NCBI GenBank assembly: GCA_903831865.1
Contig: CAIKZH010000025.1
Location: forward strand, 1-38,231
DNA from: an uncultured Coriobacteriia bacterium
GTDB taxonomy: Bacteria > Actinomycetota > Coriobacteriia > Anaerosomatales > PALSA-660
Length of the DNA: 38,231 nucleotides
Direction of reading: 5' to 3'
The position numbers and the translations under genes are program-made. The notes under the pieces are model-generated. The model saw only the letters and a list, made by a program, of their open reading frames with translations. It did not search any database and was not told the DNA's origin. Each line of letters begins with the position of its first letter. Positions within the stretch are counted from its first letter, which is position 1. Shown here in pieces: positions 1 to 18,913 of this stretch.

Positions 1-637
1 TGGGGAGCTGCCCGGTCCCGGTGAGGGTCTCGGCATTGGCCAGCACGGGCGGCCACCACTCCTTGAAGCCGCGGGCCGTGTGAGTGTCCAGCATGAAGTT
101 GATGACGGAGCGCTCGAGACGCGCGCCGAGACCACCCAGCAGCACGAAACGCGACTTCGCGAGCTTGACGCCCCTCTCGAAGTCGATGATGCCGAGTTCC
201 GGTCCAAGGTCCCAGTGCGGCTTCGGCTCGAACGCAAAGGCGGGGGGCTCGCCCCAACGCCGCACCTCCACGTTCTCGGTCTCGTCCGCGCCAAGCGGCA
301 CGCTCGCGTCGGGCAGGTTCGGCGCCGTGAGAAGCAGGTCGCGCACATCCTGCTCGACCTCGTCAAGAACACCGGAGTCCGTCTCGATCTCGTCGTTCAC
401 CGTGCGCACCTGCGCTTTGAGCGACTCGGCCTCGTCCCGCCGGCCTTCCTTCATGAGCGCGCCGACCTGCTTGGACAGCTCGTTGCGCCGAGCCTGACGC
501 TCCTCGGTGCGCGCGATCAGCCGACGGCGCTCCTCGTCGAGCTCCACGAAGGCGTCGACGCTCCACGCGGCGCCGCGGTCCGACATCGCCTTGCGCACCG
601 CGTCGATGTTCTCCCGTACGAAGCGTGCGTCGAGCAT
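1..637 (-). CDS. serS: Seryl-tRNA synthetase, N-terminal part (cut by window edge)
   Basis: This enzyme charges tRNA-Ser (and tRNA-Sec where present) with serine in the cytoplasm. The 212 visible residues begin MLDARFVREN, the usual start of bacterial SerRS. They continue through the charged helical arm (about residues 30-100) that grips the long variable arm of tRNA. The segment then enters the catalytic domain, where LLGGLGARLERSVINFML is visible. The catalytic class II motifs lie beyond base 1. The ATG at 635-637 follows a purine-rich stretch and fits the family N-terminus. The gene diverges from hgcA. No T-box leader is visible; the likely 5' UTR is only about 30 nt. Identification is secure from the sequence pattern. 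Confidence 0.95.
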   Translation of the reverse strand, partial: MLDARFVRENIDAVRKAMSDRGAAWSVDAFVELDEERRRLIARTEERQARRNELSKQVGALMKEGRRDEAESLKAQVRTVNDEIETDSGVLDEVEQDVRDLLLTAPNLPDASVPLGADETENVEVRRWGEPPAFAFEPKPHWDLGPELGIIDFERGVKLAKSRFVLLGGLGARLERSVINFMLDTHTARGFKEWWPPVLANAETLTGTGQLP

Positions 638-676
638 CCTTGGAGGCCCTTCTCTCTCATCCTGGGTGACGCGGCG

Positions 677-746: not shown

Positions 747-775
747 TTCGACAATCATCGAAGTGATGGTATCAT
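747..775 (+). promoter_or_regulatory. hgcAB promoter with overlapping inverted repeat
   Basis: A -35 box TCGACA (748-753) and a -10 box TATCAT (770-775) are separated by 16 bp, each matching consensus at five of six positions. The inverted repeat TTCGACAATCATCGAA (747-762) covers the -35 box and the start of the spacer, a classic repressor position. A start near 782 would leave about 30 nt before the ATG at 813, which supports that upstream start for hgcA. ArsR-type regulators are often reported near hgcAB, but none is encoded here, so the identity of the binding protein is unknown. Confidence 0.55.
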
Positions 776-812: not shown

Positions 813-1937
813 ATGACCGACACGATCACACGGCCAGTCGAATCTGAGGCACCTTGTTGAGGCCCTCGCACCCTGCCGTGCAGCGGGGTCGAGAGACCGA
901 GCCTCGACCAGCCCTTCGTCACCGGGTCCCTGGACACGGCCACAGGCCAGGTCCCGATCGTGCCCACCACGCTGACGCGACGCGATAGACTCGGCGGCCT
1001 GAGGGTCCGCTGGGGGATCCGCCGCTTCAGCTACACCGTGGACCCTGGCCTGTACGCCGTCGGGCACCCGGACGACCGCTCACCTGTGCTCGTGACGGCG
1101 AACTACAAGCTCACATTCGATTCGCTCCGCAGGGAGCTCGCCAGCCGCGCCGCCTGGGTGCTGGCGCTCGACACGAGGGGCATCAACGTGTGGTGCGCCG
1201 CCGGCAAGGGCACGTTCGGAACAGACGAGGCGGTGCGGAGGATCGACGCGGCCCGGCTCTCTCAGGTCGTCTCGCACAACGTCGTCGTGCTTCCGCAACT
1301 GGGGGCTCCGGGCGTCTGTGCGCCGGACGTGAAGCGACGGTCCGGGTTCCGTGTCGTGTGGGGACCCGTCCGCGCCGCGGACCTGCCCGCCTTCCTCGGC
1401 GCCGGCATGCGCGCCACGGACGAGATGCGGCGCGTGCGCTTCCCGCTGCGCGATCGTCTGGTCCTCGCGCCGGTCGAGCTCATGGGCGCCGCGAAGATCG
1501 CGCTCGCCATCGTGGCGGCTGCGGCGATCGTGGGAGGCGTCGGCCCCGGGATCTTCTCGCTCCCCCGTGCGTGGGCGGCGGCGTGGCCGGCCGCAGCCGC
1601 GGTCGCGGCGGCGCTCGTCGCCGGCGCGGTCGTGACGCCCGCGCTGCTGCCATGGGTCCCGGGACGGATGTTCGCGCTCAAGGGCGCGGAGGTCGGTGCG
1701 CTCGCCGCGGCGATCCTGCTCGTCCCATTGGCGCGGGCGTTCCCGGTGCTGCGGCTCGCGGCAAGCGCGATCTTCATGGTGGCCGCGACATCGTTCATCG
1801 CCATGAACTACACCGGCACATCCACCTTCACGTCGCTCTCGGGAGTGAAGAAGGAGATGCGGGCCGCGCTCCCGTGGCAGGTCGGCTCGGCGGCGCTGGC
1901 CGCCGCGCTCTGGATCGCAGGAGGATTCGTCCGATGA
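813..1937 (+). CDS. hgcA: HgcA, mercury-methylating corrinoid membrane protein; predicted selenoprotein (in-frame TGA 858-860)
   Basis: HgcA transfers a methyl group from its corrinoid cofactor to Hg(II), giving methylmercury. The cap-helix signature NVWCAAGK is present at residues 125-132, with Cys128 as the lower-ligand cysteine. Five membrane helices follow at about 222-244, 254-277, 292-310, 312-332 and 354-371. The first canonical start without a stop is GTG 960, but family-like coding (DQPFVTGSLDTATGQVPIV) continues in frame upstream of it. The frame runs back to ATG 813, well placed behind a promoter, and is interrupted only by TGA at codon 16 (APC-TGA-GPR). From memory, several HgcA proteins carry CC at this point, so Sec is the best reading. 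The full product would be 374 residues, a normal HgcA length. No strong Shine-Dalgarno is seen at 813. The stop overlaps hgcB by 4 bp. HgcA identity is near certain; Sec insertion is inference. Confidence 0.93.
861..898 (+). promoter_or_regulatory. Candidate bacterial SECIS region of hgcA
   Basis: Directly after the TGA, CUGC (873-876) pairs with GCAG (880-883) around a CGU loop (877-879). CC (871-872) can extend the stem with GG (885-886) past a bulged C. The loop G lies 18 nt after the UGA, inside the 16-37 nt window known for bacterial SECIS elements and close to the spacing in E. coli fdhF. A second small hairpin, GGUC-GAGA-GACC (887-898), follows. The stems are short, so the call rests on position and on the GU in the loop. 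Confidence 0.45.
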
Positions 1938-2209
1938 CAGGCATGCGCTACGTGGACGACGTCGTCACCCTGGAGTTCGATGTCGAGAAGTGCACGGGCT
2001 GTCAGCAGTGCACCCTCGTCTGCCCCCACCGGGTCTTCGAGATGAGGGGCGACCGCGCCGCGCTCGTCGACCGGGACGCCTGCATCGAGTGCGGCGCCTG
2101 CGCACGCAACTGCGCCTTCGACGCGATCCACGTGCGCCCCGGCGTGGGCTGCGCGTCCGCGATCATCGCGTCCTGGTTCGGAGGCAGAGCCGAGCCCTGC
2201 TGCGGGTAG
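1934..2209 (+). CDS. hgcB: HgcB, ferredoxin partner of HgcA
   Basis: HgcB is the small 2[4Fe-4S] ferredoxin that works with HgcA. It is thought to deliver low-potential electrons to the corrinoid and to pass Hg(II) to it. The 91 residues carry CTGCQQCTLVC and the HgcB-typical CIECGACARNC, and end in the vicinal pair CC-Gly, the proposed Hg(II)-binding tail. The ATG at 1934 overlaps the hgcA stop (ATGA), so the two are translationally coupled. The internal ATG at residue 4 is a possible alternative start. The pairing with HgcA and the CC tail make the identification firm. Confidence 0.95.
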   Translation: MTGMRYVDDVVTLEFDVEKCTGCQQCTLVCPHRVFEMRGDRAALVDRDACIECGACARNCAFDAIHVRPGVGCASAIIASWFGGRAEPCCG

Positions 2210-2240: not shown

Positions 2241-2999
2241 TCAGAGACCGCCGTCATTGGAAGCCGACAGCGCGGCCCCGTAGGCGCCCACCGTCTGCGC
2301 GTCCACCGGCACCAGCACATCGCCCGCGTAGCTCTCACGCACCAGTGCGACCATCGCCGGATTCCGTGCCACGCCACCCGCGAAGACGAGCGGCCCCGTG
2401 GCCCCCACCCGCTTGAGCGTCGAGATCGTCCTGCGGACGATGGACTCGTGCAGCCCCCGGGCGATGAGCCCCCGATCGACGCCGCGATGCACGAGGCCGG
2501 TGACCTCGCTCTCCGCGAACACGGTACACATCGAGGAGATCTGTACGTCGCCCGTCGCCGCGAGTGAGTGCGCCGCCATCTCCTCGAGGCTGAAGCCAAG
2601 CGCCCTCGCCATCACTTCCAGGAACTTGCCGGTTCCCGCTGCGCACTTGTCGTTCATCTCGAAGTCGGCGACACGGCCGCCCGCCAGGAGGGAGATCGCC
2701 TTGGTGTCCTGCCCGCCGATGTCGAGGACGGCTCCGGCCTGGGGGAACAGCGCCGATGCGCCGACGGCGTACGCCTTGATCTCGGTGACGACCTGGGCGC
2801 CGAAGGACTCACCGGCCACTCGCCGGCCGTACCCCGTCGCAACGATGAGGTCGTGATCGCCCCGGCCGACGAACGCGGCGGCCACGGAAGCCGGGTCGAA
2901 CCCGGAGTCCGCAACCGCCGCGTCAACGACCGTCGTGCCCTCGAGCCACACTGCGTCGACCGATCGCGAACCGATGTCGAGACCCAGTACACGCCGCAT
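2241..2999 (-). CDS. BcrAD/BadFG/HgdC-type ATPase activator of the adjacent double-cubane protein
   Basis: This 252-residue protein belongs to the ASKHA-fold activators of 2-hydroxyacyl-CoA dehydratases and benzoyl-CoA reductases (HgdC, BadF, YjiL). A homodimer holds one [4Fe-4S] cluster and uses ATP hydrolysis to push electrons to very low potential. Visible marks are the N-terminal phosphate loop LGLDIGSRS, the segment DIGGQDTKAI, the cluster-ligand helix NDKCAAGTGKFLE, a second conserved Cys in ISSMCTVFAESE, and the adenosine loop FAGGVARN. It starts 32 nt after the stop of the double-cubane protein gene, so the two form one operon. Its specific partner is inferred from this pairing. Confidence 0.9.
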   Translation of the reverse strand: MRRVLGLDIGSRSVDAVWLEGTTVVDAAVADSGFDPASVAAAFVGRGDHDLIVATGYGRRVAGESFGAQVVTEIKAYAVGASALFPQAGAVLDIGGQDTKAISLLAGGRVADFEMNDKCAAGTGKFLEVMARALGFSLEEMAAHSLAATGDVQISSMCTVFAESEVTGLVHRGVDRGLIARGLHESIVRRTISTLKRVGATGPLVFAGGVARNPAMVALVRESYAGDVLVPVDAQTVGAYGAALSASNDGGL

Positions 3000-3031: not shown

Positions 3032-4315
3032 CTACTTGACCATCTCGAGGAACGCCTCGACACGGGTGGAGAGCTGACCGACGTCCTCCATCGAGTAATC
3101 CGTGTCGATGCTGAGCACGGGCACGCCGGCGTCCCGGCAGGCCCGCTCCACATGCTCGGACTCGATCTGGTAAGCGTTGCAGTACTGCAGCGAGTAGTCG
3201 ATCACGCCGTCGGCCTTGAGGTCCTTCGCCATGCGGACCACGTCGTCGAGCCGACCCTGGTTGGGCGTGAAGCAGGCGCAGTTGATGTCCAGGTACTTCT
3301 CGGCGATGTCGTCGATCATCGCGTCGAGATCGGAGCCGTCTTCCTTGACCAGGCTCTCGTAGTAGCGCGAGCCCGTGCACATCTCCTCGCCGACGACGAC
3401 GCCGCCGGCCTTTTCGACGATGTCGTGGAGCTTCCAGTTCGGGAGCGCCATCGGCGTGCCGGTGATGAGGATCCGCGGTGCGCCCTTCGGCGCCACACCG
3501 ACACCGTCGGCAACGCGCTTCTCCAGCTCGTCCGCCAGCGCGTTCATGGACTGCGTGAAGCGCGGCACGTCGTCGTAGAAGGCGACCTGCGTCGCGAGCA
3601 GCGCGTCCTTGCCGGAGATCGGCGCGGGATCGGCGGCGCGGGTCGCGGCGATCCGCTGGAGGGCGCGACGCTTGTCGTTGACCTCCTTGATGGAGGCACG
3701 TAGGCTCTCGACGCCGACCTTCTTCCCGGTCAGATCCTCCACCTTGTGCATCAGGTCCACGATCTCGCTGCGCCACATCGCGAGGTCCTTGTCGCGCTTC
3801 ATCTGCGGGAGCTCCATGACGTAGACGTTGTGCATCTCGCCGAAGATCTCGTAGGCCTTCTTCTTACCGTCGCACGTGGTCTCACCGATGATGAGGTCCG
3901 ACTCCTCCATGTAGGGGCAGACCTTGGCGAGCTTGAAGCCGACGAACGACTTGATGAGCGAGCACGTGTTGCGAGGCATGATGCGCTCGACCTCGTCGTA
4001 GGCGAACTCCGCGCCGGCGCACAGCCCGACGCACCAGCCACCGGCCGCGCGGATGATCTCCTCGGGCACGTAGAGACAGAACGTCCCGACGACCTTGCCT
4101 CCTGCCTTGCGGAAGTCGTCGAGTTCCTTGATCCGCAGACCGTGCACCTCGGTCATCACGAAATCGAGGTACCCCATGCCCTCGGGCCGATTCTCCTGAG
4201 TGAGGTACGTCGCACCGTAGAGACTGCCGACGGCACCCAGCAGAGCGTCGTGCGCCTCAAGGTTCAGGCCAAGTTCCGACCACATCTTGCGGTAGTCGAC
4301 CTTCGTGTCGCTCAT
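3032..4315 (-). CDS. Double-cubane-cluster protein (YjiM/DCCP type, HgdB/BcrB superfamily)
   Basis: This single-subunit member of the 2-hydroxyacyl-CoA dehydratase superfamily resembles E. coli YjiM and the double-cubane protein of Carboxydothermus, which carries an [8Fe-9S] cluster and reduces small molecules with ATP-driven electrons. The 427 residues include VGTFCLYVPEEI, PRNTCSLIKS, VCPYMEESD, ETTCDGKKK, EEMCTGSRYY and ACFTPNQGR, the cysteine-bearing blocks of this family, and a closing DYSMEDVGQLSTRVEAFLE. The start is ATG 4313-4315, with GGAGGG 5 nt upstream. The longer frame from 4339 has no such site. The physiological substrate is unknown. It is co-transcribed with the activator and converges on hgcAB. 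Confidence 0.9.
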   Translation of the reverse strand: MSDTKVDYRKMWSELGLNLEAHDALLGAVGSLYGATYLTQENRPEGMGYLDFVMTEVHGLRIKELDDFRKAGGKVVGTFCLYVPEEIIRAAGGWCVGLCAGAEFAYDEVERIMPRNTCSLIKSFVGFKLAKVCPYMEESDLIIGETTCDGKKKAYEIFGEMHNVYVMELPQMKRDKDLAMWRSEIVDLMHKVEDLTGKKVGVESLRASIKEVNDKRRALQRIAATRAADPAPISGKDALLATQVAFYDDVPRFTQSMNALADELEKRVADGVGVAPKGAPRILITGTPMALPNWKLHDIVEKAGGVVVGEEMCTGSRYYESLVKEDGSDLDAMIDDIAEKYLDINCACFTPNQGRLDDVVRMAKDLKADGVIDYSLQYCNAYQIESEHVERACRDAGVPVLSIDTDYSMEDVGQLSTRVEAFLEMVK

Positions 4316-4481
4316 CACGCCCTCCAAATGATCGCGCAAGTGCCGAGACTGACCGCGCCACGATGGTGCGGTACGGCAGAGTATAGGACAGAGCCATGCG
4401 TTCCATAAGAGGATTCTGAAATTGGGCGTGTAGATTCTCTCCGCCCCGGAAGCGCCCCGTGTTCGTGAAGCGATGCGTTCG

Positions 4482-16486: not shown

Positions 16487-18424
16487 CTACTTCACCGTGA
16501 CGGTGATCTTGCTCGAGTTCGGAGCAGCCAGGTAGAGACCGCTGCCCGGGAAGCTGACGTAGAAGGAGTAGACGCCCTTCGCGGTCGGCTTGTAGTTGTT
16601 GTTCTGCCACAGCGAGCTGGCAGACCCCGCACCGTAGGTGAGGCGGTTCGAGGAGTACGAATAGAAGCTCTTGCCCGGCTTCTTGACCATCAGGGTCACC
16701 ATCAGGCCGTTGGCTCCAGGAGCGCCGACGAGCGCGCCGGAGACGTTGAACGCCTTGCCCAGCTTGATGCTGGATGCGCTGGAGCTGATGGTGAGCGCCG
16801 TGGCGATCGTGTACACAGGAGGCGACGCGATCGAGAAGGTCAGAGACTTCGTGCCCTCGGTGTTGCCGGCCTTGTCGACGCCCCAGTAGGTGATGGTGTG
16901 GGGACCGGCGCCGGTGACGTCGAACGCGACCGTGAAGGTGGAAGCGGTCGAGACGGGAGGCGTGGTGCCCGAGGCGATCGTGTAGGTGTGGCAGTCGGAG
17001 CAGTTGGAGCCACCGTTGGGATCAGACGGCAGGAAGTGATTGCCGTTGTTGTCGGTCGGCATGATCGCCGGGATCAGCGAAGTGCCGTGGCAGAGCGAGC
17101 AGCTGATCGACGGATCGTGAGTGGCGTGATCGGCGGGCTCGACGATCGCAGCGGCCTGTACGAACGTGTGACAGGTCTTGCAACCGGCGGTGACTCCGGC
17201 GTGCGAGATGGAGACGCCGACGGTCGGCAGGACCCACGTGGGGTGGCAACCTGCGGCGACGCAGCTGGCGTTGGCGGCGGTCAGAACCGCAGCCGAGCCA
17301 CCTGCGTGGGCAACGGGGATGGCAAGGTCGGGAGCGCCGAATGCGGCTGCCCGAACGCCGGCGGTGACGACCGGCTTGGCGACACCGTCGACCGTGTAGT
17401 TCAGGCTGGCCATGCCGGAACCGAAGTCAGGCGAGGTCAGCGTGATGTGAGCGGTGGAGCCGGCGGCCAGAACTGCGCCGTTGGCTACGCCGGCAAGGGT
17501 CGTGACAGGCGCGGTGGCATCCACGACGGTGACAGTGAAGGCCTTCGTCACGATCGCGCTGTGGAGACCGCTGTTGTCGACGCTGTAGTACGACAGCGAG
17601 TGGTCGCCCGCAGCGGTCACGGTGACGGTATTGCCGCTCTTCCAGTCACCGTTGTCGAGGCTGTACCACAGCGACGCGATACCGGAAGCGTCCGTACCCG
17701 AAAGGGTGATGGTCGCCGATCCGGGGTACGTGGCCGCGGCGTTCGACGACACCGTCGGCAGGATCGTGTCGCTGATGGTGAAGTTCATGGAGATCGAGAA
17801 CCCGGCGTTGCCGCCGGTGTCCTTCGCCCACGCGACGAGAGTGTGGAAGCCGCGCGCCGTGACGGTCACGGCCGCGCCCGAGACAGCGGGTGCGCCATCG
17901 AGGCTGTACCAGGTGGAGGCTACCGGCAAGCCACCAGTGGCCTGCACGCCCGTGAAGGTGATGGTCGCGCTGTTGTCATAGGCGGTCAGGTTGCTCGAGA
18001 GGATCAGCGGCAACGTGTTCGCCAGAGTGAACGACTTGTGGACGGTGACGCCGGTCTGCTGGCCGATGGTGGCCTCAGCAGACGTGCTCGTGTCCACGGA
18101 GAAGTAGTCCAGCGTGTGGCTGCCGATCATGCCCCAGCTGGTGATGGGCAGGCTGATCGTTGCGGAAGCAGGCCATGCCGCGACCGTCGCGATCGAGCCA
18201 CCGTCGAACGAATAGACGGTGTACTTGTAGGTCCCGCCCACGCCGGGAGTCGCGGTCAGAGAGATGACCGCTGTGTTGTTGTAGGCGGCGACGGCGTTGT
18301 CGGTGGTCGTCGGCGCTGCGAAAGCAAGCGCCGGTACGGCGAGGACGACAACAGCCGCGAGCCCGAAGGCCACTGCCAGCAGCGCCTTGGAACGAGCGCT
18401 GTGATTCCTGCGCGTCTTGCTCAT
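16487..18424 (-). CDS. Secreted Ig-like repeat protein with a four-heme c-type domain
   Basis: This 645-residue exported protein has a signal peptide (1-37, ending ALAFAAP). Several Ig-like/bacterial surface domains follow (about 38-330), with recurring WYSLDG and Y-SVD blocks. A compact heme domain (about 385-485) holds CVAAGCH (a CX4CH form known from cytochrome c3), CKTCH, CSLCH and CSDCH. Two further Ig-like domains run to the end (500-645). GGAGGG lies 8 nt before the ATG. It is the first gene of the block with the Tat ferredoxin and AOR, and probably passes electrons to extracellular acceptors or partners. No LPxTG or lipobox is seen, so surface attachment is unclear. Confidence 0.88.
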   Translation of the reverse strand: MSKTRRNHSARSKALLAVAFGLAAVVVLAVPALAFAAPTTTDNAVAAYNNTAVISLTATPGVGGTYKYTVYSFDGGSIATVAAWPASATISLPITSWGMIGSHTLDYFSVDTSTSAEATIGQQTGVTVHKSFTLANTLPLILSSNLTAYDNSATITFTGVQATGGLPVASTWYSLDGAPAVSGAAVTVTARGFHTLVAWAKDTGGNAGFSISMNFTISDTILPTVSSNAAATYPGSATITLSGTDASGIASLWYSLDNGDWKSGNTVTVTAAGDHSLSYYSVDNSGLHSAIVTKAFTVTVVDATAPVTTLAGVANGAVLAAGSTAHITLTSPDFGSGMASLNYTVDGVAKPVVTAGVRAAAFGAPDLAIPVAHAGGSAAVLTAANASCVAAGCHPTWVLPTVGVSISHAGVTAGCKTCHTFVQAAAIVEPADHATHDPSISCSLCHGTSLIPAIMPTDNNGNHFLPSDPNGGSNCSDCHTYTIASGTTPPVSTASTFTVAFDVTGAGPHTITYWGVDKAGNTEGTKSLTFSIASPPVYTIATALTISSSASSIKLGKAFNVSGALVGAPGANGLMVTLMVKKPGKSFYSYSSNRLTYGAGSASSLWQNNNYKPTAKGVYSFYVSFPGSGLYLAAPNSSKITVTVK

Positions 18425-18686: not shown

Positions 18687-18756
18687 GCAGCCCCCGCGCC
18701 TTCCCCCGAAAAGCGGCGCAGCCCCTAGCGTCCGCTTGGCGCGGCGCCGGTGCTGC
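18687..18756 (-). promoter_or_regulatory. GC-rich structured segment of the cytochrome leader
   Basis: The ends GCAGC and GCTGC pair, followed by GCGCC with GGCGC. An inner AAGCGG pairs with CCGCTT. Together they make a long, partly interrupted stem. It could be a leader RNA structure; high GC alone makes chance pairing likely, so confidence is low. Confidence 0.3.
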
Positions 18757-18913
18757 AGCCTCCTTTTCGGAGAGGAAGGCGCCCTGGTTTCCCCTGGGCT
18801 CCCTGTCGGTCCTACTCCCTTGGCGCGAGCGCTTTAGGCGAGCATGACTCGGAGGCTTGCGACTGCGACCACGTCCATGTGCGATGGAAGAACCTGTGTG
18901 ATGCGCACGTGAA

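Follow-up and report, generated by a model that had tools for sequence, protein, structure and literature searches.

Results

The stretch of DNA analysed here (38,231 nucleotides in full length, hereafter the window) is the start of contig C25 in a draft genome of an uncultured Coriobacteriia bacterium (2.16 Mb, 192 contigs, 96% complete). Close to its beginning, it carries hgcA (813..1937, plus strand) and hgcB (1934..2209, plus strand), the gene pair that makes the toxic methylmercury. hgcA begins with ATG at 813 and ends with a stop codon at 1935-1937, while hgcB begins with ATG at 1934, resulting in an ATGA overlap of the two genes. When an in-frame TGA is read through, HgcA comprises 374 amino acids, matches PF03599 and reaches 425.6 bits with NF040863, for which the curated NCBI cut-off is 275 bits. 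HgcB, a dicluster ferredoxin of 91 amino acids, reaches 120.5 bits with NF040864 (curated cut-off 99 bits) and, like HgcA, is thus found above its threshold. With NF043039, the model of HgcAB-like fusion proteins, HgcA scored 201.5 bits and stayed below the cut-off of 285.

The HgcA signature NVWCAAGK (residues 125-132, encoded at 1185..1208 on the plus strand) forms the cap helix, is invariant in 55 aligned HgcA sequences and includes Cys128, the predicted cobalt ligand. An AlphaFold2 model of HgcA (55 aligned sequences) has a mean pLDDT of 91.6, with low confidence for residues 1-16, and displays a corrinoid domain followed by five long transmembrane helices between residues 219 and 370; Foldseek matched it to the HgcAB model 9a0b and to CFeSP. 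In HgcB, cysteines are located at positions 20/23/26/30 and 50/53/56/60, at position 73 (GVGC) and in a C-terminal Cys89-Cys90-Gly, the second 4Fe-4S motif ending with CA, not CP. Domains, NVWC cap helix and five transmembrane helices are shared with HgcA and HgcB of Pseudodesulfovibrio mercurii ND132 (modelled complex 9a0b), and the two HgcB proteins are also alike in Cys20/23/26/30, Cys50/53/56/60, Cys73 and an equivalent C-terminal Cys pair (PMC7305189). Unlike in ND132, HgcA of the window has a predicted selenocysteine (Sec16) in an N-terminal Cys-Sec pair, and its host is an actinobacterium.

The predicted Cys15-Sec16 pair results from an in-frame TGA at codon 16 of hgcA (858..860, plus strand), which aligns with a Cys of the Cys-Cys that most other HgcA proteins have at this site. 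The frame starting at ATG 813 runs into this codon, and under translation table 11 only the 358 codons after it form an open frame. The initial annotation had described a complete hgcAB with all signatures, with which the pair at 813-2209, its motifs and its scores above the cut-offs agree. It missed, however, the TGA at 858-860 that breaks the hgcA frame; the frame it described is not plainly open, and hgcA is hence complete only if this TGA is read as selenocysteine. The protein around the site reads MTDTITRPVESEAPC-U-GPRTLPCSGVERPSLDQPF (...EAPC-U-GPRT...). At the position of the pair, a TGA was found in all hgcA-bearing genomes of the family (8/8, window included) and in one genome of another family of the order, and the nine actinobacterial TGA codons stand after APC or DAC. 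In other families of this order, the site reads ECCGP or similar, or the pair is absent. Since the proteins are homologous and the TGA is conserved in nine actinobacterial genomes, chance can be excluded. Neither TAA nor TAG was found at the pair site in the loci examined. Outside the Cys pair, the N-terminal tail of HgcA is poorly conserved, and no Cys pair is present there in L040, L042 and L072; as several HgcA proteins do without any such pair, it is not strictly needed for all HgcA.

Downstream of the TGA, we found a SECIS-like hairpin (870..889, plus strand) with a 7-bp upper stem (870-876/883-889) and the apical loop CGUGCA (877-882); loops across relatives read CGUGCA, CGGGCA and similar. 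Covariation was assessed in nine actinobacterial sequences of 57 bases, counted from the preceding Cys codon and aligned without gaps. Pairing was observed in 96.8% of the 63 stem cells, two-sided changes occur in four of the seven pairs, and none of the shuffles reached the observed percentage paired or the covariation score. Slid registers were paired to 27-59%, a control that favours the hairpin somewhat as the hairpin model was drawn from folds of the same sequences, and the two-sided changes are therefore the stronger evidence. Compared to shuffles, the minimum free energy (MFE) of the window sequence by itself is unremarkable (z -1.9). Published limits for bacterial SECIS elements are a loop of 3-9 nt, a stem of 4-16 bp, a G at loop position 1 or 2, a distance of 16-37 nt from the UGA and an MFE of at most -7.5 (PMC13188914), and the window hairpin lies within them (6-nt loop with G in second position, 7 bp, 16 bases 3' of the UGA, -23.5 kcal/mol).

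Machinery for selenocysteine insertion is encoded in the host genome, where selD, selA, selB and the tRNA-Sec gene are all located within 7 kb on contig C126. The host selD (L148:1120-2112), adjoining the other three genes, is itself a selenoprotein gene with an in-frame TGA, which corresponds to residue 23 (U23) of the translated stretch (SSKSGUAAKYGPEDL), a site known to be occupied by either Sec or Cys in SelD proteins. All genomes of the family bearing a TGA-type hgcA have selA; it was not found in G101, a genome with TGA-type hgcA that is only about 86% complete.

TGA-type hgcA was also detected in loci of other phyla. Among relatives from the genome collection, a strict position filter yielded 15 loci with TGA directly at the pair, L002 included, to which L031 and L044 were added on inspection, and many other loci encode Cys-Cys. 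In the HgcA tree, Sec in the tail is seen in 26 rows. A single clade of all Sec-HgcA was rejected (p-AU 5.3e-8), from which it follows that Sec and Cys swapped places more than once in HgcA, while grouping the Sec forms from Actinobacteria as one clade was not rejected (p-AU 0.30). In HgcB, nine loci carry a TGA in place of the Cys73 codon (GVGU; L012, L019, L025, L051, L054, L059, L061, L074 and L079); these belong mostly to Desulfobacteraceae and fall into one HgcA clade. For the window, HgcB as selenoprotein was rejected, as the site reads GVGC. A Sec codon in both HgcA and HgcB was never observed among the loci seen, a pattern that rests on few independent events.

Upstream of hgcA lies the palindrome TTCGACAATCATCGAA (747..762, plus strand), a candidate ArsR-type operator. 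The pattern TTCGAYNNNNRTCGAA has only three matches in the genome (reversed control: 0; matches expected in the window: 0.00), and the other two palindromes (C75:22400-22452, corresponding to L147:4401-4453) stand before an ArsR-family gene that is followed by acr3. Counting the window, a similar palindrome lies upstream of hgcA in seven of eight family genomes; in this comparison, none was found before hgcA of L101. Read by eye, the palindrome overlaps a possible -35 box (TTCGAC), with a -10 box (TATCAT, 770-775) at a spacing of 17 bases. ArsR control of hgcAB has been demonstrated in ND132, as cited in PMC10349881. Unlike in ND132, no arsR gene stands beside hgcA in the window, and the palindrome suggests that regulation occurs in trans; hgcAB of the window may be controlled by an ArsR-type regulator acting from a distance.

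The gene pair is flanked upstream by the start of serS (1..645, minus strand; seryl-tRNA synthetase, named from sequence), which is cut by the window edge, and downstream by genes for a BadF/HgdC-type activator ATPase (2241..2999, minus strand; named from sequence) and an HgdB-like double-cubane-cluster anaerobic reductase (3032..4339, minus strand; NF040772, 491 bits). Both serS (68-75% identical) and the activator ATPase (69-81% identity) occupy the same places beside hgcAB in L002, L129, L130 and L132. L002, L129 and L130 retain the order serS - hgcAB - activator - double-cubane reductase and L132 retains parts of it, while L135 has the order hgcAB - pheA - larB - larC. A binning error of the contig, which the initial annotation had wished to see checked, was rejected as unlikely on the grounds of this gene order conserved in related genomes. 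The presumed actinobacterial host was supported as a member of the Coriobacteriia, as the same-genus locus L115 (G123) lies wholly inside L002, a locus of Coriobacteriia bacterium isolate nzgw107. Elsewhere in the window, we noted an open reading frame with OmpL47-type repeat domains (16487-18424, minus strand; NF047446, three stretches), a match that is unexpected in an actinobacterium and may reflect a general surface repeat, and a molybdenum/tungsten cofactor riboswitch (18744-18866, minus strand; 52.1 bits).

In the HgcA tree, the window groups exclusively with members of its own family in a clade that comprises eight rows and has an SH-aLRT support of 100% (L002 and L115 represent the same genome), and the family member L101 was placed outside this clade in the quick tree. 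Holding all HgcA of the order as one clade was not rejected (p-AU 0.65), and its likelihood was better than that of the quick free tree. A recent import from a classical methylator is thus not supported, given the fully supported own-family clade and the order clade that was not rejected. Of the two origins proposed at the outset, transfer or old inheritance, hgcAB looks inherited within the family, judging from this clade together with synteny. Two HgcA proteins from a different group within the class (L099, L100) sit among Bacillota, which likely reflects a separate transfer of hgcAB.

Discussion

Our analysis strongly suggests that hgcAB forms an operon at this locus and that its HgcA product is a selenoprotein. 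Position and conservation of the TGA, the covarying hairpin and the selenocysteine machinery indicate that HgcA is very probably a selenoprotein, and the occurrence across related genomes shows the predicted Sec-HgcA to be a stable family trait in this actinobacterial lineage. In-frame GTG and TTG codons downstream of the TGA might, in principle, act as starts, which counts against this reading. The TGA would then be a true stop, with HgcA starting downstream at GTG 960 (codon 50) and lacking the tail, and the upstream part would be either a leader that is not translated or a dead peptide. Such a start is the one chosen by a mechanical gene caller; the whole corrinoid and membrane domains lie within the open frame after the TGA, and the match to NF040863 starts only at residue 47. 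However, conservation in frame extends to both sides of the TGA (EAPC-U-GPRTLPxS...RPxLDQPFVTG), the next start codons are scattered among relatives (+34 in the window, +5 for TTG and then +76 for GTG in L111), and TGA and covarying hairpin are both kept, leaving a true stop improbable. A start at GTG 777 was likewise judged unlikely, as the proposed -10 box (770-775) would place the transcript start after this codon. That the TGA stems from a sequencing or assembly error, or marks a broken pseudogene, might be suspected in a fragmented draft assembly of 192 contigs, but an identical TGA occurs in nine separate genomes, the frame is otherwise undamaged and hgcB is intact, so that we give this explanation, which would require one error common to all nine, virtually no credence.

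Following the selenoprotein reading, we propose that hgcAB is a chromosomal operon transcribed from the promoter overlapped by the ArsR-type palindrome, to which an ArsR protein would bind. The ribosome would start at ATG 813 and decode the UGA at 858 as selenocysteine by means of the downstream hairpin and the SelABCD/tRNA-Sec machinery of the host, yielding the corrinoid membrane protein of 374 amino acids, with hgcB translated in a coupled manner. The role presumed for HgcB is reduction of the corrinoid, while HgcA is presumed to carry CH3-Co, held by Cys128, from which the methyl group would be passed to Hg(II). This corresponds to the scheme proposed for methylation, in which HgcB reduces the corrinoid, the cap-helix Cys is the ligand of the CH3-Co formed on HgcA, and Hg(II) receives the methyl group (PMC7305189); SAM has been reported as methyl donor (PMC11588087).

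But what could be the function of a Cys-Sec pair in the tail of HgcA? Vicinal Cys/Sec pairs suit the binding of soft metals, and the placement of Cys15-Sec16 resembles that of the Cys pair near the C-terminus of HgcB. We prefer, albeit tentatively, a reading in which Cys15-Sec16 in the flexible N-terminal tail captures Hg(II) and hands it over to the corrinoid. The main rival is a redox role of the pair, which might for instance serve to reduce or protect the corrinoid or to resolve a disulfide, or else a role involving a different metal or a metalloid, arsenic being one example. The palindrome before hgcAB, which is like that of arsR-acr3, would fit such a role, and the literature has not settled what HgcAB natively does; HgcAB has, however, been experimentally tested as a mercury methylator in P. 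mercurii, and the affinity of vicinal pairs for soft metals also speaks for mercury, so that we see the rival as possible though rather unlikely. Proceeding from Hg(II) capture by the tail, one might speculate that methylmercury formation in this family is selenium-dependent, with Cys15-Sec16 as a high-affinity Hg(II) site under ArsR control and with the supply of both selenium and arsenic setting methylation, while Sec and Cys would have been exchanged repeatedly in HgcA, with Sec in HgcB elsewhere and, among the loci seen, never in both. This extended hypothesis is a doubtful one at present. Selenium binds mercury very tightly, and selenocysteine in a mercury-methylating protein would join both elements inside an enzyme.

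The suggestion of the initial annotation that the locus extends the range of candidate methylators turned out not to be new. Seventeen hgcA+ Actinobacteria, nine of them Coriobacteriia and thus of the same class as the window, were reported by McDaniel et al. 2020 (PMC7438021), and in our data the HgcA cut-off is exceeded in 38 of 396 genomes of this class. Selenium goes unmentioned in that study, in which both 'selen' and 'stop codon' have 0 occurrences. We found no paper joining hgcA with Anaerosomatales. Sec-type HgcA (NF040863 'CU') goes back to Haft and Gwadz 2023 (J Bacteriol, as cited in PMC13188914 and PMC11588087), and a 2026 review crediting these authors among others lists both Sec-HgcA ('CU') and Sec-HgcB ('GVGU'). 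Hence, actinobacterial hgcAB (2020) and Sec-HgcA (2023) are both already published. Going by the citing papers, UGA replaces the second Cys of the Cys-Cys pair in the type of Haft and Gwadz 2023 as it does in the window, whereas the case of the window is actinobacterial, extends across a family and comes with a SECIS that covaries. Our literature search, outside which lay the taxa of Haft and Gwadz 2023, returned no report of family-wide conservation, covarying SECIS or operator. What is added here is that the predicted Sec is conserved throughout a family of Actinobacteria, together with the covarying SECIS and an ArsR-type palindrome shared with arsR-acr3. For a variant that is known but little studied, the window offers an ArsR-type operator candidate and a SECIS short enough to be readily tested. 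Automatic gene calls that start past the UGA drop the tail, and the trait can thus be overlooked in surveys of methylators.
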